Assembly: GCA_018780145.1 (NCBI GenBank) | Contig: JADMKA010000010.1 | Span: 1-49,110, forward strand | Direction of reading: 5' to 3' | DNA length: 49,110 nt | From: Vitreoscilla sp. | Lineage (GTDB): Bacteria > Pseudomonadota > Gammaproteobacteria > Burkholderiales > Burkholderiaceae_C | Shown here: positions 1,183 through 8,696 of the stretch, piece by piece | Position numbering within the stretch: position 1 is the first letter of the stretch | Layout of the letters: each line of letters starts with the position of its first letter | Program-made: the position numbers and the translations under genes | Notes under the pieces: model-generated | What the model was told of the DNA's origin: nothing | Database searches by the model: none | What the model saw: only the letters and a program-made list of their open reading frames with translations

Positions 1183-2349
1183 ATGAACATGCCATCTCGT
1201 CGCCGCATTTGGGCGGCAGCGGCGTTCACCGCTGCTGGTCTGATCGGCTTGGCGACGTCGGCTGCCGCCAAGGAAGTGGCCTACTACACACCGTCCGATG
1301 GCAGCGACAGCGCCTACCTGATCGATTGGGCCAAGAGCAAGGCCCGGGTCGTCAACGGCGTCGGTGCACAAAAGGGGGTGGTGACCGGCGACTCGGCGCA
1401 ACGCGTGGTCACCCTGAACAGCCCGTTTAGCATCCTCAATGACGCGTTCGACTCCTGCGACATAGGCATCCAGCAGCGCAGGGACACGAACCAGGTCGTG
1501 GTGCGCGAAGGCGGCAAGACCGCCCAGATCATCGAGATCGGCACCTTCACCAACCTCGGCGGTTGCGAGGACGGCCTGGTGACCCCCTTCGGCTCGCCGA
1601 CCGATGAAGGTGTGACCCATCTGCAGGTCGCCATGGCCAAGCGCCCGCCAGTGACCGATCTCATTCCCGGTGCGGTGATGGCTGGCTTCAGCGAGGATGC
1701 GCAGTTGCCGGGTGAGTTCCAGGTGGCGCAGGACCTGGCCGTCATGCAGGCCGGGTCGCTGCTGTTCCAGACCACCGGAAACGCCGTGCCGGCGAGCCTC
1801 AGCCCGGACAAATGGTTGCTGTTGGCCTTGCCCTTCGAGCAACGCGGCTACACCCGGCTGTCGGTTGACGCCAAGACCGGCGGCGAGCACTGGCTCCGGG
1901 CCGTCTGGGCGAACGGCCAGACCCAGCGGGTTCACGAGGCGCTGCTGGTCAAACCGGTGGGTGGTGCCAGCTTCGGCTCGGTCAAGCAGGCCTCGCGCAT
2001 GTGGGAGTCCGGGCTGTTCTCTGGCACCCGCACGCCCTTCTACCTGTACCTCTACCAGGACGGGAACGGCGAACGGGTGTCCAAGAACCTGGACGCGGGA
2101 ACCGAGACCCGCACGCCCATGACCTGGGTCTTCGCCGGCAACGACATCGTGCAGACCCGTTCCCTGGGAGGCGGCTACTACCGAGGGGACCGCACCTGGC
2201 AGCCCTTGCGCGATGTCGGCACCTATGACGAGTGGGTGATGGAGTCCGAAATGCTGACCGATCCGGACGGCGTGGTCACAACCCTCATCAAGCCGCGCGT
2301 CAACCTCTACGTGGACACCGGCAAGGCGGTTCCGCCGGCACGCCGCTGA
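1183..2349 (+). CDS. secreted protein of unknown function
   Basis: I do not recognise the family. The product has 388 residues and starts MNMPSRRRIWAAAAF, with a basic n-region, a hydrophobic stretch at about residues 9-28 and a likely signal peptidase I site after ATSAAA, so it is probably periplasmic or surface-exposed. GGAGGAG lies 6 nt before the ATG and decides the start against earlier in-frame codons. The mature protein is rich in Tyr, Trp and Gly (for example GGGYYRGDRTW), has two cysteines (in DSCDIG and LGGCEDG) that could form a disulfide, and has no membrane helix after the signal. It follows pcp by 147 bp and looks monocistronic; the neighbours give no clue to its role. Confidence 0.75.
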   Translation: MNMPSRRRIWAAAAFTAAGLIGLATSAAAKEVAYYTPSDGSDSAYLIDWAKSKARVVNGVGAQKGVVTGDSAQRVVTLNSPFSILNDAFDSCDIGIQQRRDTNQVVVREGGKTAQIIEIGTFTNLGGCEDGLVTPFGSPTDEGVTHLQVAMAKRPPVTDLIPGAVMAGFSEDAQLPGEFQVAQDLAVMQAGSLLFQTTGNAVPASLSPDKWLLLALPFEQRGYTRLSVDAKTGGEHWLRAVWANGQTQRVHEALLVKPVGGASFGSVKQASRMWESGLFSGTRTPFYLYLYQDGNGERVSKNLDAGTETRTPMTWVFAGNDIVQTRSLGGGYYRGDRTWQPLRDVGTYDEWVMESEMLTDPDGVVTTLIKPRVNLYVDTGKAVPPARR

Positions 2350-2354
2350 GCCAC

Positions 2355-2573
2355 TCAGCGGTCCGGCGCCTGGCCGGGGCTGTCGCTGTCGCGATAGCCC
2401 CGCCACGGGCCCATGGCCGCCTTCATCAAGGCCATCTGGCGCACGAAGCGCGGGCAGGCGGCGCAGATGGCCAGGTGCAGGCGCAGGCGCAGGCGGTCGG
2501 CCCAGGGCAGGGCAGTGTCCTGCCCCTGCAGCACCAGGTGCGTCGCTTCCTTGCAGTTGATCATCCAGCTCAT
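2355..2573 (-). CDS. small zinc-finger (zf-HC2 type) anti-sigma factor
   Basis: A 72-residue protein starting MSWMINCKEATHL, with the anti-sigma zinc signature HxxxCxxC at H33, C37 and C40 and a further Cys at 7. Proteins of this type hold an ECF sigma factor inactive and release it on a redox or metal signal. Its ATG overlaps the sigma factor stop codon (ATGA), so the pair is co-transcribed and coupled. No membrane helix or periplasmic domain follows the zinc finger, so sensing must be cytoplasmic or through another protein. An upstream in-frame extension of 30 residues exists but lies inside the sigma gene and lacks family similarity. I infer that it controls the divergent bufferin operon. 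Confidence 0.82.
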   Translation of the reverse strand: MSWMINCKEATHLVLQGQDTALPWADRLRLRLHLAICAACPRFVRQMALMKAAMGPWRGYRDSDSPGQAPDR

Positions 2574-3145
2574 GTCGGGCCTCCGGTGCTGCCGAGGGGA
2601 GTGAACCAGCCCGCCTGCAGGCATTCCCGCAAGCGCAGCCGGGCTCGGTGCAGCAACACCCACAGGTTGGTCGAGGTGATCGCCAGTTCCTTGCAGATTT
2701 CGTCAGTTTCCAGCTCCAGCCACTCGCGCATCATGAACACGCGGCCCTGCGCGGCAGGCAGTTTCTCGACGCAGGCATCGAGCACGGCCAGGAACTGTCG
2801 CTGGCCCAACAGGGTCTCGGGTTGATCTCCCCAATCCGCCGGCTTGTCGCGCCAGTGGCCTGTCTCGTCGAAGAGCAGGGCGTCGAGATCCTCGCTGTCG
2901 TCGCGGTCGAGCACGGTGGCTTCGCGGGCCTGGCGCCGCAGCTGGTCGATCAGCTTGTGCTTCAGGATGCCGACCAGCCAGGTCTTCAGCTGAGAGCCGC
3001 CGGCAAAGGCCTGCGGCCGCTCCAGCGCGGCGAGCAAGGTGTCGGACACTGCATCCTCGGCCCAGGCATCATTGCGCAACTGGCTGCGCGCGTAGCGCAG
3101 CAGTTGCGGTCGCAAGGCCTGTACCTGCTGGGCAAAGTCGGTCAT
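2570..3145 (-). CDS. ECF-family RNA polymerase sigma factor
   Basis: A 191-residue sigma-70 family protein with only regions 2 and 4. Region 2 lies at about residues 10-75 (LLRYARSQLRND, TWLVGILKHKLIDQLRR). Region 4 lies at about 120-180 (LDACVEKLPAAQGRVFMMREWLELETDEI, then an HTH around ELAITSTNLWVLLHRARLRLRECL). The acidic linker between them is unusually long, at about residues 80-115. The gene is divergent from the bufferin operon with 104 bp between starts, and its stop overlaps the start of the anti-sigma gene. In Caulobacter an ECF factor (SigF) controls an equivalent operon, so regulation of bufABCD by this sigma is a well-founded inference. Confidence 0.93.
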   Translation of the reverse strand: MTDFAQQVQALRPQLLRYARSQLRNDAWAEDAVSDTLLAALERPQAFAGGSQLKTWLVGILKHKLIDQLRRQAREATVLDRDDSEDLDALLFDETGHWRDKPADWGDQPETLLGQRQFLAVLDACVEKLPAAQGRVFMMREWLELETDEICKELAITSTNLWVLLHRARLRLRECLQAGWFTPLGSTGGPT

Positions 3146-3180
3146 GCCGGTGTCGCGAGTGATCGAAGCGCGCAGTGTAA

Positions 3181-3206
3181 GGAATCATCGGCCCCACCGA
3201 CCGATG
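3181..3206 (+). promoter_or_regulatory. candidate ECF-type promoter of the bufferin operon
   Basis: GGAAT at 3181-3185, preceded by TGTAA, is separated by 16 bp from CGATG at 3202-3206. GGAA(T/C) with CG-rich -10 elements at this spacing is the usual layout of ECF-sigma promoters. The predicted start near 3213 gives a leader of about 37 nt ending in AAGGAG ahead of bufA1. No good sigma-70 boxes are visible in this 104 bp gap. The call is by pattern only. Confidence 0.45.
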
Positions 3207-3249
3207 CCTGTCCCGACATCATCCACCCTCGTTTCAAGGAGACTTCCAC

Positions 3250-3534
3250 ATGAGTTCACAACGCCAGATCGCCGCCTCCGCCCTGGCCGCCGTGTTTGCC
3301 CTGGGCCTGGCCAGCACCAGCGTGCATGCGCAGGAGAAGGCCAAGGAGAAGTGCTACGGCATTGCCAAGGCCGGCCAGAACGACTGTGCCAACCTGAGCG
3401 GCAGCCACTCCTGCGCCGGCCAGGCCAAGACCGACATGGACGCCAACGAGTGGAAGTACGTTCCCAAGGGCACCTGCAAGGACATGAAGGGCCTGAGCGC
3501 CGAAGAGGCCAAGGCCAAGACCAAGAAGGCCTGA
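3250..3534 (+). CDS. bufA1: bufferin precursor BufA1 (DUF2282), exported copper-binding RiPP
   Basis: A 94-residue precursor. It has a Sec signal peptide (residues 1-27, cleavage expected after SVHA) and a small mature part with four cysteines, C35, C46, C55 and C76, in the DUF2282 arrangement ([31 protein letters not shown]), then a Lys/Ala-rich tail. Bufferins are known RiPPs in which an MNIO enzyme converts cysteines to thiooxazole groups; the product is secreted to the periplasm and buffers excess copper. The ATG at 3250 has AAGGAG 7 nt upstream. It is the first gene of bufA1-bufB-bufC-doxX. A Sec signal on a RiPP precursor is itself unusual. The family assignment is secure; copper as the ligand here is inferred. 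Confidence 0.9.
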
Positions 3535-3562
3535 AGCCCTGCTGGCCCGACCGAGCCACGCC

Positions 3563-4426
3563 ATGGCCCATCTCCGCACGCCCCCAACGGCGCCACCAGC
3601 TCCGGTGGGCATCGGCTGGCGGGCCCCGCACTACCGGGAGTTGCTGACGCTGGTCCCGGCCCTGGACTTCATCGAGGTCCACTCCGAGAATTTTTTCGGG
3701 GACGGCGGTGCCGCATGGGCCCTGCTGGGCCAGGCCCGCGAGCACTACCCGGTCAGCCTGCACGGCGTGGGCCTGGCCCTCGGCTCGGCCGAGGGCCTGG
3801 ACCCGTGGCACCTGGACCAACTGGCGCGCCTGGTCGAGCGAGTGCAGCCGGTGCGGGTGTCTGACCACGCCAGCTTCGCCCGCGTGGCGCGGCCCGGCGG
3901 CGGGCCGGTGGTGCATGGCAGTGATCTGCTGCCCATCGCCTTCACCGACGCGTCGCTGGACCTGATGGTCGAGCATGTGCAGCAGGTGCAGGAGCGCCTG
4001 CGCCGGCCCATCCTGGTGGAGAACCTCTCGGCCTACCTGCGCTGGGAGGACGACCACCTGGCCGAGCCGGAGTTCTTCAATGCCCTGGCTCGGCGCAGCG
4101 GCTGCGGCCTGCTGCTGGACGTGAACAACCTGGTGGTCAATGCGCTCAACCGGTGCGCGAGCGATCCCACGGCCCAAGCCTGTGCCTGGGTCGATGCGCT
4201 GGACACCGGTATCGCCGGCGAGATCCACCTGGCCGGCTACAACGATGCCGGGCCGTTGGTGATCGACGACCATGGCTCGCCGGTGCACGACACCGTGTGG
4301 CCGGTCTACCGCCACGCGTTGCGACACCTGGGTCCGGTGCCCAGCCTGATCGAATGGGACACCGATCTGCCGGCGCTCGGGGTCTTGCTGGCCGAGGCGC
4401 AGCGGGCGCGGGAGTACGCGGCATGA
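3563..4426 (+). CDS. bufB: MNIO-family oxidase (DUF692), bufferin-modifying enzyme BufB
   Basis: A 287-residue TIM-barrel, multinuclear non-heme iron oxidase of the MbnB/DUF692 family. The family blocks occur in order: GIGWRAPHY near residue 17, [80 protein letters not shown] and LIEWDTDLP. The His, Asp, Asn and Glu residues in these blocks are the expected iron ligands. Such enzymes oxidise cysteines in a partner precursor, here BufA1, whose gene ends 28 bp upstream. The stop overlaps the next start (ATGA), matching the known need of BufB for its DUF2063 partner. The HSENFF and [11 protein letters not shown] blocks place it in the bufferin/DUF2282-linked branch rather than with methanobactin MbnB (inference). 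Confidence 0.92.
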
Positions 4427-5196
4427 GCCGTTTCATCGAAGCCGAACGCCAGCGTGGCCTTATGGCAGCGCTGCGCCATGCCGAGGGCGGTTTGCCGGTT
4501 GCGGCCGTTGCGCTGCCGGCGGCTGACCGGCTGGCCGGCCTGCGGGCGTACCGGGCCAACGCGCAGGCCATTGCCCAGCGCGCGTTGATCGCCGCGTACC
4601 CGACCGTGTCGCGGCTGCTGGGCGATGAGCCGATGAAGGCCCTGGCGCGCGATCTCTGGCGCGCGCATCCGCCTGTTCGCGGTGACCTGGCCTGGTTCGG
4701 TGCCGAACTCGGTGGCTGGATCGCCGGCGTGGCCGAGCTGGCCGAGTGGCCCTGGCTGGCCGATGTGGCCCGGCTGGACTGGGCGCTGCACCGCGCCCAG
4801 TTTGCCGCCGATCCACCCGACCTGCCTGAGGGCTTGCCGCTACTTGCCGAGCTCGACCCCCGGCAGTTGGCCGTGGTCTTCGTGCCTGGCGCCGCCTGCA
4901 TCGTCTCGGCCTGGCCTGTCCACGCCATCTGGGACGCCCAGGTTCGGGCGACCGGAGAGGCGCCTGATCCTGGCGTTGCCGAGACCGCCTGGGTCTGGCG
5001 CCGTGGCCATGGTGCCTGTGTCTCGACCTTGGGGCCCGGTGAGTTGGCGTTGCATCAGGTACTGCTGGCTGGCGATTCGCTCGGCCTGGCCTGGGAGTCC
5101 GCCTCGGCGGCCGACCCCGATTTCGACTTCCGCGCCTGGCTCACCCGCGCACTGCGCGAGGGGTGGCTGGCCGGTATCCACCCCCTGACTTCCTGA
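4423..5196 (+). CDS. bufC: DUF2063 partner protein of the MNIO enzyme (BufC)
   Basis: A 257-residue protein whose N-terminal part (about residues 1-100) is the helical DUF2063 domain: the [10 protein letters not shown] start, [23 protein letters not shown] is typical in spirit, followed by [15 protein letters not shown] and the [15 protein letters not shown] block. The C-terminal half resembles the MbnC-like part that binds the precursor leader and delivers it to the MNIO enzyme. The start overlaps the bufB stop as ATGA, so the two proteins are probably made in equal amounts as a complex. An in-frame region upstream is open but lies inside bufB and is not used. Confidence 0.88.
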
Positions 5197-5207
5197 AGGA
5201 GTTCCCC

Positions 5208-5687
5208 ATGTTCTCTGCGCCCCCTGTGCTGGCGCGCGCCTGGCTGCGCGCGATCGGCTGGCTCGAAACCCTGCAACCGCTGGCCTTGCTGGCGGCACGC
5301 CTCTATGTGGCGCGGGTCTTCTTCCTTTCCGGCTTGACCAAGATCCAGGACTGGGAGACCACGCTGGCACTGTTTGCCGACGAGTACCAGGTGCCCCTGT
5401 TGCCGCCCGAGCTGGCCGCCTACGCGGGCACCGCCGGCGAGCTGGTGCTGCCGGTGCTGCTGGCCCTCGGCCTGGCCGGGCGGTTCGGTGCGATGGGCCT
5501 GTTCGTGTTGAACATCGTAGCCGTGCTGAGCCTGCAGGAGATTGCCGATGCGGCCCTGCAGCAGCACATCTTCTGGGGCAGCCTGCTGGCTGGCCTGGTG
5601 CTCTGGGGGCCCGGCAACTGGTCGGTGGACCGGTTCGTGGCGCCCAGGTTTCTGAAGGTCAGTTCTTCGGGTAGCGCGACACGCTGA
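5208..5687 (+). CDS. DoxX-family inner-membrane protein of the bufferin operon
   Basis: A 159-residue membrane protein with about four helices (LALLAARLYVARVFFLSGL; LAAYAGTAGELVLPVLLALGLAG; MGLFVLNIVAVLSL; IFWGSLLAGLVLWGP) and the DoxX signature FFLSGLTKIQDW. The ATG at 5208 has AAGGAG upstream and follows the bufC stop by 11 bp. DoxX-type genes close many bufferin operons, including the Caulobacter one, but their biochemical role is not settled; terminal-oxidase-like or quinone-linked functions have been suggested for relatives. Its 3' end overlaps the convergent tolA gene by 29 bp. Confidence 0.88.
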   Translation: MFSAPPVLARAWLRAIGWLETLQPLALLAARLYVARVFFLSGLTKIQDWETTLALFADEYQVPLLPPELAAYAGTAGELVLPVLLALGLAGRFGAMGLFVLNIVAVLSLQEIADAALQQHIFWGSLLAGLVLWGPGNWSVDRFVAPRFLKVSSSGSATR

Positions 5688-6528
5688 GCGTCATCGGCGA
5701 GGGCACGCGGCCGTTGTCGTCGCGCGGCAGCACGGCGGTCTTCTCGACGGCGCGCAGCACGGCGTCGTCCCACTCCTTGATGCCGCTGGGTTTGACCACG
5801 CGCTGACTCAGGATGGTGCCGTCCGGCGCCACCCGCAACTCGACTTCGGTGGTCGGGTTGCCTGGCACCTCGAAAGGCAGCTGGATGTTGGGCCGGATGC
5901 GCGCCACGATGCGGCCGGCGTAGCTGGACGACGGCCCCGCATCGCGCGCCGCGGCGCCCGTGCTGGTGGGGGCGCCGCTGCCGCCAAGCTGCTCGTTCAT
6001 GCGGCGCAGCTGATCCTGGCGGGCCTTCTCGCGAGCGGCCTCGGATTTCTGCTGGGCCTGCCGCTCCTTGTCGGCCTGGGCCTTGGCGTCCCGCTCCTTC
6101 TCGCGCTGAAGCTCCTCCTGCTGGCGCTTTTCGCGGGCGCGCTGCTCCTCGGCTTCCTTGCGCTCCTTTTCCATGCGCTGCTTCTTGGCTTGCTCGATGG
6201 CGATCTGCGCGTCGCGCTCGGCCGTGTCGGGTGGCGGCACGGCCACTTTGGGCGGCGGTGGTGCCGGCTCGGCCGCCTCGGGCGGTGGTTCGGCGCGCGG
6301 CGCGGCGATCTCCGGCACCGCGGCCCACAACTCGGCGCTCACCCCCTCGGGCTCCACGTTGCGCCACTGCACGCCCAAGGCCAGCGCAGCCACGAGCCCC
6401 GCATGCGCCAGCACCGACATCAGCGCGCCCACGCGCGGGTTGTCGTTGCTCGGCGGCCGCAACGCGTCGCGCGGGATCGTCAGCGACTTGAGAGGGTGCC
6501 GCGGGTCGAAGGACGAGCTGGCGTTCAC
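5659..6528 (-). CDS. tolA: TolA, envelope-spanning protein of the Tol-Pal system
   Basis: A 289-residue protein with the TolA plan. One N-terminal membrane helix lies at about residues 33-53. A Pro-rich stretch (EPPPEAAEPAPPPPKVAVPPP) and a long Lys/Glu/Arg/Gln-rich helix (about 105-180) span the periplasm, and a TonB/TolA C-terminal domain (about 200-289, with YAGRIVARIRPNIQLPF and TTEVELRVAPDGTI) contacts TolB/Pal or colicins. TolA uses proton motive force through TolQR to keep the outer membrane tethered and constricted at division. The start is GTG, 24 bp after tolR. Usually tolB-pal follow; here the next gene is the convergent doxX, so tolB-pal must lie elsewhere. Confidence 0.92.
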   Translation of the reverse strand: MNASSSFDPRHPLKSLTIPRDALRPPSNDNPRVGALMSVLAHAGLVAALALGVQWRNVEPEGVSAELWAAVPEIAAPRAEPPPEAAEPAPPPPKVAVPPPDTAERDAQIAIEQAKKQRMEKERKEAEEQRAREKRQQEELQREKERDAKAQADKERQAQQKSEAAREKARQDQLRRMNEQLGGSGAPTSTGAAARDAGPSSSYAGRIVARIRPNIQLPFEVPGNPTTEVELRVAPDGTILSQRVVKPSGIKEWDDAVLRAVEKTAVLPRDDNGRVPSPMTLSVSRYPKN

Positions 6529-6552
6529 GATTCAGCTACCCAAGGGCCTCAT

Positions 6553-6984
<432 letters not shown>

Positions 6985-7002
6985 GCCACGTGCTCCGGCC
7001 GC

Positions 7003-7692
7003 TCAGCGCGTCGGCGTGGCCGTGGGGGCCGCGACGTTGCGCTGGAGGATGTTCGAGAACTCCTCGGTGAAGCTCTCGAGCTGGATCGCGATGCGGTCGA
7101 TGTCGCGCGCGAAGCGGTTGTAGCCGATCACCGCGGGGATGGCTGCGAACAGGCCGATGGCGGTGGCCACCAGCGCCTCGGCAATGCCCGGCGCCACGGT
7201 GGCCAGCGTCACGCTCTGCAGGTTCGACAGGCCGACGAAGGCGTGCATGATCCCCCACACGGTGCCGAACAGGCCCACATAGGGGCTGACGGAGCCTACG
7301 GTGCCAAGAAAGCCGAGGTTGCCCTCGATGGTGTCCAGCTCGCGCTGCAGACTGGCGCGCATCGCGCGGCGTGCGCCGTCGAGCTGGGCCGTGGTGTCCA
7401 GGCGGCGCTCACGCAGTTTCAGGAACTCGCGCATGCCGCTGGCGAACAGGCGCTCCATCGGCGCGGTGTCCACCCGCGTACTGGCGCCCTGGTACAGGTC
7501 GTTCAGGTTCTTGCCGGACCAGAACTCCTGCTCGAACTGGTCGTTGCGGCTGCGCACCTTGGCCAGGCCCACCAGCTTGGCGAAGATCACCGACCAACTG
7601 GCCAGCGACACGCCGAGCAGGCCGGCGATCACGAGCTGCACCACCCAGCTGGCGTGCATCACGAGGGAGATGATGGAGAGATCCTGGTTCAT
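7003..7692 (-). CDS. tolQ: TolQ, motor subunit of Tol-Pal
   Basis: A 229-residue MotA/TolQ/ExbB-family protein with three membrane helices: residues 8-32 (LVMHASWVVQLVIAGLLGVSL), then a cytoplasmic stretch, then two helices around GNLGFLGTVGSVSPYVGLFGTVWGIM and ALVATAIGLFAAIPAVIGYNRF. The GTVWGIM and AIPAV blocks are diagnostic. The start overlaps the ybgC stop (ATGA). It builds the proton channel with TolR and drives TolA. The paralogous set exbB-exbD-exbD-tonB lies at 44833-47260; this locus is assigned to Tol by its ybgC and tolA neighbours. Confidence 0.95.
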   Translation of the reverse strand: MNQDLSIISLVMHASWVVQLVIAGLLGVSLASWSVIFAKLVGLAKVRSRNDQFEQEFWSGKNLNDLYQGASTRVDTAPMERLFASGMREFLKLRERRLDTTAQLDGARRAMRASLQRELDTIEGNLGFLGTVGSVSPYVGLFGTVWGIMHAFVGLSNLQSVTLATVAPGIAEALVATAIGLFAAIPAVIGYNRFARDIDRIAIQLESFTEEFSNILQRNVAAPTATPTR

Positions 7693-8096
7693 TCGGTCAA
7701 TCGGGCAAGGATGTCGGTCGGAATGCGGAGGGGGCGGAAGGTTCCACGGTCCACGCAGGCGATCTGGATCTGGCCTTCGCACAGCACGGTGGTGTCGCGC
7801 CAGACTGCCTGGGCGATCTGCATGCTCGCCCGGCCGATGTCGACGGGCTGCACCGTGACCCGCAGCGTATCGTCCAGCCGAGCCGGGTGGAGGTAACGGA
7901 TGCGTGCATCGGTGACGACGAACATCGCCCCTTCGGCCTCGGCCATCGCCTGCTGCCCGTGGCCGAAGGCGCGCAACCACTCGGTGCGTGCGCGCTCGAA
8001 GAACTTCAGGTAGTTGGCGTAGTAGACGATGCCGCCGGCGTCGGTGTCTTCCCAGTAGACGCGCAGGGCATGGGAAAAGGCGGCGGGCTCATGCAT
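7689..8096 (-). CDS. ybgC: YbgC, acyl-CoA thioesterase of the tol operon
   Basis: A 135-residue hot-dog-fold thioesterase. The active-site block YWEDTDAGGIVYYANYLKFFERARTEWL (given here by its ends: YWEDTDAGG at residues 14-22 and FFERARTE near 33-40) matches the 4-hydroxybenzoyl-CoA/YbgC family, with Asp in DTDAGG as the catalytic residue. YbgC hydrolyses acyl-CoA thioesters in the cytoplasm and is linked to phospholipid metabolism; it is the standard first gene before tolQ. The stop overlaps the tolQ start. Upstream lies the tandem repeat 8124-8286 instead of an obvious promoter. Confidence 0.94.
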   Translation of the reverse strand: MHEPAAFSHALRVYWEDTDAGGIVYYANYLKFFERARTEWLRAFGHGQQAMAEAEGAMFVVTDARIRYLHPARLDDTLRVTVQPVDIGRASMQIAQAVWRDTTVLCEGQIQIACVDRGTFRPLRIPTDILARLTE

Positions 8097-8123
8097 GGCA
8101 AGCCGCGCATGATACGTGAGGGT

Positions 8124-8286
8124 CTCAAGGAAACGACGGGCCGCTCCCGAGTTTCCTTGACCCCCTCGGGGGGCCTGACGCGAAGCGGCAGGTTTGGGGG
8201 CGCTCTCAAGGAAACGACGGGCCGCTCCCGAGTTTCCTTGACCCCCTCGGGGGGCCCGACGCGAAGCGGCGGGTTTTGGGGGCGCT
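8124..8286 (-). repeat. tandem pair of an 81-82 bp dispersed repeat, terminator-like
   Basis: Two adjacent copies (8124-8204 and 8205-8286) differ at three positions. A third copy lies at 34215-34293. Each unit holds a hairpin with perfect 9-bp arms (CAAGGAAAC / GTTTCCTTG) and a GC-rich palindrome CCCCCTCGGGGGG, then CGAAGCGG and a run GGTTTGGGGGCGC. In all cases the element begins at the stop codon of the gene it follows and has the same orientation relative to that gene, so a role in termination or mRNA end protection is likely. Here it lies between the lipoprotein gene stop and ybgC. No reading frame of coding character is present. Confidence 0.8.
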
Positions 8287-8696
8287 CAGCGGCGCGACTG
8301 CTCGTACACGGGGCCCCAGACCGGGTGCCCGGCTTCGGCCTTGTTCAAGCTGAAGGCCGGGTCGGCCGCACGGGCGGCTCGGAAGGCGGCTTCGCATTCG
8401 GCCGCGCGGCCACTGGTGCAGTAGATGAAGGCCAGGGTCTTGTGCGCCGTGGCCCGGTCGCGCGCCGTGGCGGGCTGCAGGCGCAGGGCCTCGCCCAGTG
8501 CGCGCTCGGCCTCCGGGTACTGGGCCTCGTCATAGGCCCGAAGGCCCAGCAGCAAGTTGCGCTCGGCGGGCTTGTCGAAGGCGTCGCTGACGCTGGCCGG
8601 TGCGCCGGGTGTGACACACCCGGCCAGGGTGGCCACGAGGGTGATCGCGAGCGCGACAACGGCGTGGGATCCGGCAGACGGAGGGGGTCGGGTCAT
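8286..8696 (-). CDS. TPR-containing lipoprotein (TssQ-like), partner of the kinase upstream
   Basis: A 136-residue lipoprotein. Signal peptide and lipobox LVATLAGC give a lipidated Cys27. The mature part has TPR-like helices (NLLLGLRAYDEAQYPEAERALGEALRLQP and HKTLAFIYCTSGRAAECEAAFRAARAADP blocks) and a short C-terminal tail ending GPVYEQSRR. It resembles small TPR lipoproteins called TssQ-like in some Burkholderiales, where they sit beside serine/threonine kinases; no other type VI secretion gene is present here, so that link is weak. The start overlaps the kinase stop (ATGA), showing coupling. The stop codon lies at the edge of the tandem repeat. Confidence 0.8.
   Translation of the reverse strand: MTRPPPSAGSHAVVALAITLVATLAGCVTPGAPASVSDAFDKPAERNLLLGLRAYDEAQYPEAERALGEALRLQPATARDRATAHKTLAFIYCTSGRAAECEAAFRAARAADPAFSLNKAEAGHPVWGPVYEQSRR

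Follow-up and report, generated by a model that had tools for sequence, protein, structure and literature searches.

Positions 2355–5687 of contig JADMKA010000010.1 from Vitreoscilla sp. (assembly GCA_018780145.1; the whole analyzed stretch of 49,110 nucleotides is referred to as the window) are, judged by gene content and order, a Buf1 bufferin (captophorin) operon with the layout of gigPABT-rpoQ-rsqA. Sequence comparisons further suggest, with a probability of roughly 0.8, that this operon is controlled by its own extracytoplasmic function (ECF) sigma factor together with a zinc-binding anti-sigma (ZAS) factor. The gene set is of an already known kind. What the comparisons add is a defined predicted promoter and a small predicted regulon, which includes an unlinked BufA2 operon.

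A Buf1 operon divergent from a sigma/anti-sigma pair

The plus strand carries bufA1 (3250–3534), which encodes a DUF2282 precursor of 94 amino acids, bufB (3563–4426) for a multinuclear non-heme iron-dependent oxidative (MNIO; DUF692) modification enzyme of 287 amino acids, bufC (4423–5196) for a DUF2063 partner protein of 257 amino acids, and a gene for a DoxX-family membrane protein of 159 amino acids (5208–5687). The precursor gene, followed directly by the MNIO gene, then by the DUF2063 partner and DoxX, represents the bufABC order. Encoded on the minus strand are an ECF sigma factor of the PRK12520/TIGR02943 family (2570–3145; 191 amino acids) and a soluble anti-sigma factor of 72 amino acids (2355–2573) with the ZAS motif C7-X25-H33-X3-C37-X2-C40. 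Overlaps of 4 bp link the MNIO gene to the DUF2063 gene and the sigma gene to the anti-sigma gene, which fits two divergent operons.

All six genes proposed in the initial annotation were found as open frames at these coordinates, each with a Pfam match above the curated cut-off (NCBIfam profiles were judged likewise). BufA1 matched PF10048 (DUF2282) with 92.8 bits (cut-off 22.4), BufB matched PF05114 (MbnB_TglH_ChrH) with 297.9 bits (cut-off 25), BufC matched PF09836 (DUF2063) over residues 9–100 with 54.0 bits (cut-off 27.2), and the DoxX protein matched PF07681 with 65.5 bits (cut-off 23.6). The sigma factor was recognized by Sigma70_r2 (51.6 bits, cut-off 24) and Sigma70_r4_2 (45.6 bits, cut-off 25.7) as well as by NF009173 (289.7 vs. 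cut-off 255) and TIGR02943 (235.2 vs. cut-off 162.2), and the anti-sigma factor by zf-HC2 (26.7 bits, cut-off 22.2) and NF052368 (69.3 bits, cut-off 50). Two scores are soft points, as the MNIO remained below the NCBIfam BufB cut-off (301.1 vs. 310) and the DoxX protein below that of HvfX (56.1 vs. 80). The earlier assignment of the locus to the bufferin pathway and the presence of a divergent ECF sigma factor with a zinc-finger anti-sigma factor were both corroborated, the former because gene set, order and sequence signatures equal those of the Buf1 bufferin operon (PMC12452194; here and below, published systems are compared as they appear in the accessible parts of the cited sources).

The best matches to the sigma factor among named records were from Burkholderiales (e.g., Ideonella, Aquabacterium, Roseateles, Rubrivivax, and Sphaerotilus). 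In 80 named loci, which are stretches fetched via the sigma protein, bufA was present in 60 and divergent from the sigma gene in every one of these, so that the pairing is not a matter of chance. All six genes occurred in 51 of the 80 stretches and sigma plus anti-sigma alone in 20; at least four loci (L178, L216, L217, L237) belong to genomes that are also part of our 60-genome set. Within that set, DUF2282 was detected in 36 genomes including the source genome. Of 41 loci examined, namely the window plus 40 stretches that were fetched, 18 combined sigma, anti-sigma and bufA genes, with a divergent arrangement in 17 and a same-strand arrangement in one (L074). Plasmid searches (77 and 341 records) gave matches below 60% identity.

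A predicted ECF promoter upstream of bufA

Alignment of 16 divergent intergenic regions revealed a shared block, aGTGTAAGGA-N14/15-CGAC, which points toward bufA and starts 74–160 bp before its start codon in 16/16 cases. In the window, the corresponding sequence is CAGTGTAAGGA-N14-CGAC on the plus strand at 3173–3201, a predicted promoter-like element of ECF form for the buf operon. The motif was defined after inspection of the alignment, and a matrix was trained on the same 16 regions (L057 was excluded from training, as its sigma start was missed by the search pattern) with scores of at least 12 counted as matches. Among the 60 named divergent loci, 56 reached this score (54 scored at least 18), compared with 0/60 in the antisense direction. 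GTGTAA and GAC were invariant in the 56 matching loci. The four misses were L219, L250, L253, and L256; a full-strength site in L219 is located just beyond the scanned stretch, which raises the count to 57/60. The exact core occurs once in the window and in 0/100 shuffles, and a scan of positions 2200–6600 for sigma-70-type promoters found none.

The conserved element might instead serve another regulator, with the sigma factor not driving bufA. Control of gig by RpoQ, the Cupriavidus metallidurans sigma factor with the same gene layout, is not demonstrated in the accessible parts of PMC10304878 and PMC11022561, which also counts against our own reading, and under metal treatment gig was expressed even more strongly after rpoQ had been deleted (PMC10304878). 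Moreover, the genomes G020, G141, and G154 possess the element without a detected sigma factor. We nevertheless regard this alternative as unlikely. The element has the form of an ECF promoter and resembles the −35 region of Neisseria meningitidis sigma-E, for which GTMAGBWTT (−35) and CGTCTAAH (−10) separated by 12–13 nt were reported (PMC2893595). In addition, the promoter type appears to follow the sigma type: three Burkholderiales Buf1 loci (L039, L041, L062) encode a different ECF sigma factor and an NrsF-like protein (recognized by sequence reading, not by a profile match), and the SigF-type promoter GTAACC-N16-CGAA was present near bufA in 2/3 of these SigF-like/NrsF-like loci vs. 0/7 other Buf1 loci scanned.

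Predicted regulon

The source genome (5.57 Mb in 280 contigs, the window being contig C254) contains three copies of the exact core TGTAAGGA-N13..16-CGAC, compared with 1.14 expected from base composition and none for the reversed-pattern control. They are situated before bufA1, before a BufA2 operon on contig C76, and before a thioredoxin/DsbD-like gene pair on contig C250. The C76 operon is of the Buf2 type, with an 87-amino-acid precursor containing six cysteines (NF050166 (BufA2), 94 bits vs. cut-off 60), an MNIO above the BufB cut-off (379.8 vs. 310) and a DUF2063-type partner that was found with the profile of bufC. On C250, the site lies 66 bp before the gene of a 126-amino-acid thioredoxin-like protein with a signal-like N-terminus, which is followed by a DsbD_TM protein. 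Based on these placements, we predict that one sigma factor drives both bufferin types plus periplasmic thiol repair.

The 25 genomes with a sigma factor of at least 60% identity contained 39 exact sites. Thirteen were located before bufA1, six before Buf2-kind MNIO operons (assigned by NF050166 for G000, G013, and G014 and by position before an MNIO gene for the others), four before thioredoxin genes, one before MsrA (G027), one before a DoxX-like gene (G016), and nine within the sigma gene; five were not placed, among them the unread G013:C19. Because of their location, the nine intragenic sites were not counted as upstream promoters.

In non-training MNIO loci, scores of at least 12 were obtained for 16/25 loci from genomes with a sigma factor of at least 60% identity, 7/15 from genomes with 40–59% identity, and 1/7 from genomes with none (Fisher p = 0.033 for the first vs. 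the last class). The antisense controls of the same classes yielded 1/25, 1/15, and 0/7, and shuffled sequences 21/1240. These counts include L057 (score 11.5) and L074 as misses despite their linkage to a sigma gene, and the match of L124 lies inside a sigma gene; L048 is not among the loci counted. Three further loci may likewise be linked to a sigma gene, since in L054 and L056 the second operon shares a contig with it at a distance of ~4–5 kb, and the contig of L040 is just 5.9 kb long. Among BufA2 loci, 30 of the 40 above the cut-off were read, and 21 of these 30 scored at least 12; for previously unseen loci the proportion was 15/23 in sense vs. 2/23 in antisense direction. Across 200 family genomes, the sigma factor (E 1e-30) was detected in 31/36 genomes with BufA2 vs. 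64/164 others (p = 2e-7, kinship uncorrected). Orthologues of the thioredoxin were present in 8/60 genomes, and six scored at least 12. Four of the eight (G000, G011, G015, G028) had first been found via the motif, and of the four found without it two reached the score, one of them with a higher value in antisense direction.

Several observations argue against so wide a regulon. Over all 60 genomes the exact pattern was hardly more frequent than its reversed control (56 vs. 53), and in the 25 genomes mentioned above the numbers were 39 vs. 24. Raw pattern counts were therefore rejected as support, and it is the placement of the sites, not their number, that constitutes the evidence. A second Buf1 operon in the source genome (contig C217) lacks the element. 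Furthermore, the element precedes bufA in G020 and BufA2 in G141 and G154, genomes in which no sigma factor was found at E 1e-30. At the level of titles and abstracts, with subscription papers mostly uncovered, we found no report of this regulon or of an element inside the sigma gene.

Another strong copy of the element was observed in L055 (positions 6500–7580; G017) on the strand opposite to bufA and before a radical SAM/DUF3641 gene, which is a possible regulon member. In L054 (G021), a TlpA/thioredoxin-like gene, recognized by eye, is located in the gap between the sigma gene and bufA and has a TGTAAG-like sequence upstream.

An element inside the sigma gene

In many relatives, the region 4 codons for the peptide C-K-E-L-x-I-T-S-T-N spell TGTAAGGA-N14-CGAC approximately 100 bp before the anti-sigma gene. 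Inside the sigma genes of the 80 loci, 29 matrix matches scored at least 17. The nine exact matches within sigma genes led to a codon test, and since the conserved peptide could force the letters, silent sites were examined. The Cys151 codon was TGT in 56/79 sequences, compared with 9/80 and 13/79 at the other two conserved cysteine columns, and where a lysine codon comes next, TGT was used in 55/71 cases at Cys151 vs. 25/213 elsewhere in the sigma genes. Codon 158 was NCG in 77/79 sequences, the highest share of the 20 NCN columns (next 0.65). When mapped on the sigma-protein tree, its first base had changed 19 times and its third base only twice, whereas the other 19 NCN columns showed 6 to 26 third-base changes. 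Taken together, these patterns suggest a probable overlapping function of the DNA, the simplest candidate being a promoter from which the sigma factor transcribes the anti-sigma gene. In that case, the same letters would both code for part of sigma region 4 and serve as a site read by the sigma factor.

An appreciable chance, if somewhat below one half, has to be given to the alternative that the element is a by-product of the conserved peptide and codon usage. The peptide dictates most of the letters, and codon 158 is not unique: among 73 fourfold degenerate columns, columns 24 and 172 likewise showed only two third-base changes, so that codon bias can produce such low values. Against a promoter function also speaks that TGT was found in 8/20 sigma loci without a nearby bufA vs. 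48/59 with bufA. The copy in the window (2670–2695, minus strand; TGCAAGGA-N14-CGAC, ~95 bp before the anti-sigma start) retains AAGGA and CGAC and has one mismatch to TGTAAGGA, because Cys151 is encoded by TGC instead of TGT. The element may thus be weak or lost here. The by-product explanation does not sit well with the TGT excess over the other conserved cysteine columns and with the static third base of codon 158 next to its variable first base. For the combined proposal, in which the sigma gene carries a promoter read by its own product for the anti-sigma gene (negative feedback) and the same sigma factor runs two bufferin types plus periplasmic thiol repair, we see an even chance.

Anti-sigma factor and inducing signal

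C7, H33, C37, and C40 of the anti-sigma factor were retained in 80/80 relatives, and neither the window protein nor any of these relatives contained a 19-residue stretch with a Kyte-Doolittle hydropathy above 1.6. The protein fits the pattern C/H-X23-26-H-X3-C-X2-C of the MseR/HrsE/RsrA kind. As it has no transmembrane segment, it probably senses something cytoplasmic. Its solubility and the conserved Cys/His/Cys/Cys set make thiol or metal-thiol stress the probable signal, rather than copper by itself. The inducers to be expected are thiophilic metals, copper among these, and oxidants of thiols. Copper, whose inducing effect the initial annotation suggested testing, may be too narrow as the inducer, because the anti-sigma factor is of the soluble ZAS type and the predicted co-targets are genes for thiol and methionine repair. 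This view has to be weighed against reports that meningococcal sigma-E was unresponsive to the oxidants tried (PMC2893595) and that, for the RpoQ signal, the authors favor periplasmic metal-glutathione (PMC11022561, PMC10304878), with gold-glutathione having been proposed (PMC11022561).

A rival explanation would be that the operon serves against thiol and oxidative stress in general, so that its copper binding would be incidental and its physiological ligand or task another one (gold, silver, or damage by HOCl). Consistent with this possibility, the predicted co-targets comprise thioredoxin, MsrA, and a DoxX-like protein, Haemophilus influenzae RpoE2 (to which ECF group number 13 was given) responds to HOCl, H2O2, and paraquat by induction (PMC7907618), gold as well as copper acts on both gig and Legionella GIG (PMC10304878, PMC5413113), and C. 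metallidurans RpoQ has been tied to thiol homeostasis (PMC11022561). However, loss of sigF in Caulobacter leads to copper sensitivity and the respective operons are copper-induced (PMC8224329), and DUF2282 products were reported as copper binders (PMC13097082). We thus consider a general-stress role possible but the less probable explanation.

Predicted precursor modification and proposed mechanism

The window precursor contains exactly four cysteines (Cys35, Cys46, Cys55, and Cys76), which together with His53 were conserved in 60/60 relatives. Its N-terminus is hydrophobic with a likely cleavage site between SVHA and QEK (by-eye reading alone). In Buf1, the two central cysteines are modified and the outer two are disulfide-bonded (PMC12452194, legend of Fig. 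3). In relatives, the MNIO and its DUF2063 partner convert cysteines to 5-thiooxazoles with a loss of four hydrogens each and an absorbance near 305 nm, and the products of such systems bind copper (PMC13097082, PMC12452194). By analogy, Cys46 and Cys55 are predicted to be modified and Cys35 and Cys76 to form a disulfide. The mass shift of −8 Da put forward in the initial annotation holds for the reduced peptide; for the peptide as isolated, the computed shift is −10 Da, since the outer two cysteines reportedly form a disulfide. If cleavage occurs after Ala27, the mature peptide has a computed monoisotopic mass of 7148.43 Da before modification, 7140.37 Da with two thiooxazoles, and 7138.36 Da when the disulfide is added.

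The BufB residues H67, E153, N154, D186, H222, D235, H237, and E264 occupy alignment columns with an identity of 95% or more across 57 relatives. Histidine, glutamate, asparagine, and aspartate residues of this kind presumably bind iron. Searches of the PDB matched BufB to the solved structures 3bww and 8hci and gave nothing useful for BufA, BufC, and the anti-sigma factor. For a C-terminal domain of BufC of the RiPP (ribosomally synthesized and post-translationally modified peptide) recognition element type, a PDB profile search returned one chance-level match (E 0.99).

According to the mechanism that we propose, the anti-sigma factor would hold the sigma factor in unstressed cells. Thiol-reactive stress, caused by thiophilic metals such as copper and gold or by oxidants, would strip zinc from the anti-sigma factor or oxidize its cysteines, and the sigma factor thus freed would transcribe bufABC-doxX from 3173–3201 as well as the unlinked BufA2 operon and the periplasmic thioredoxin/DsbD-like pair. 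BufB and BufC would then turn Cys46 and Cys55 of BufA into 5-thiooxazoles, the peptide would be exported by Sec and form the Cys35-Cys76 disulfide, and the exported BufA would sequester periplasmic copper. The intragenic element of the sigma gene may, in relatives, add sigma-dependent transcription of the anti-sigma gene and hence negative feedback.

Genomic context

The source genome has two DUF2282 matches (C254 and C217) and three MNIO matches (C254, C217, and C76). The second Buf1 operon on C217 comprises DUF2282, MNIO, DUF2063, and DoxX genes (L035, ~5642–8679; L002, 1827–2330), and no sigma gene was found in the 16 kb read. A gene for a YHS-domain-like secreted protein, recognized by eye, is located just upstream of it.

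Variants of the operon were also seen in other genomes. The DoxX gene of L048 (G007) lies between bufA and the MNIO gene, and in L050 (G020:C22) and L057 (G034:C32) the MNIO match falls into two pieces within one frame, as if interrupted by an insertion or a lineage-specific loop. In L060 (G051) and L064 (G039), a DUF2282 gene lies beside DoxX and the stretch yielded no MNIO; these would be stand-alone precursors, perhaps modified in trans.

The genes on both sides are outside the module. The left neighbor (1183–2349) had no Pfam or NCBIfam match, and the right neighbors on the minus strand appear TolA/TolR/TolQ-like by eye. Rfam at gathering thresholds found tRNA alone in the window. Two adjoining near-identical stretches at ~8020–8200 show a repeated KETTGRSRVSLTPSGG in six-frame translations and are probably an intergenic repeat.

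Comparison with known systems

The divergent layout with an ECF sigma/anti-sigma pair has already been described for gigPABT-rpoQ-rsqA of C. metallidurans (PMC10304878), with which the window shares genes and gene order; the likeness is one of layout. GigP consists of a 22-amino-acid leader and a mature part of 72 amino acids with four cysteines. RsqA was called membrane-bound by its authors, whereas the window anti-sigma factor is soluble, and no promoter of gig was identified in the accessible part of that study (PMC10304878). The gig-type operon of Legionella, GIG, is likewise responsive to gold and copper. Unlike the window locus, it resides on an integrative element, and the term “anti-sigma” is absent from the main text of its description (PMC5413113). 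Bufferins (captophorins) are widespread. For the gig/RpoQ type, the DNA sites recognized by the sigma factor and the signal that it senses become directly testable through the precisely defined promoter prediction, the short regulon predicted here with its unlinked BufA2 operon, and the soluble anti-sigma factor of the zinc type.

The small soluble ZAS anti-sigma factor resembles those of N. meningitidis sigma-E/MseR and H. influenzae RpoE2/HrsE, whose regulons comprise methionine sulfoxide reductase and a DoxX cluster (PMC2893595, PMC7907618). Meningococcal sigma-E also shares the GTAAG-type −35 with the window element, but its −10 is CGTC vs. CGAC here, and its operon NMB2140-2145 is co-transcribed, not divergent (PMC2893595). 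H. influenzae differs from the window in its precursor, which belongs to the EGKCG type (PMC13097082).

In Caulobacter, SigF controls a DUF2282/DUF692/DUF2063/DoxX operon, a second DUF692/DUF2063 operon and YedY, which was described as a methionine-sulfoxide repair system (PMC3511200, PMC8224329). Control of two MNIO operons plus sulfoxide repair by one ECF sigma factor, which for the source genome is a prediction, thus has a parallel there. However, Caulobacter NrsF belongs to the DUF1109 family and has six transmembrane segments, whereas the window anti-sigma factor is a zf-HC2 protein of 72 amino acids, and regulation of the window operon by a SigF/NrsF system was rejected for this reason. 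The window element also differs from the SigF promoter GTAACC-N16-CGAA (PMC3511200). While co-control of two operons is known from Caulobacter, our analysis adds the same logic, as a prediction, under another sigma factor, anti-sigma factor, and promoter. This suggests that two sigma/anti-sigma systems, SigF/NrsF and the type found in the window, came to drive similar content, namely a pair of MNIO operons together with sulfur repair in the periplasm.

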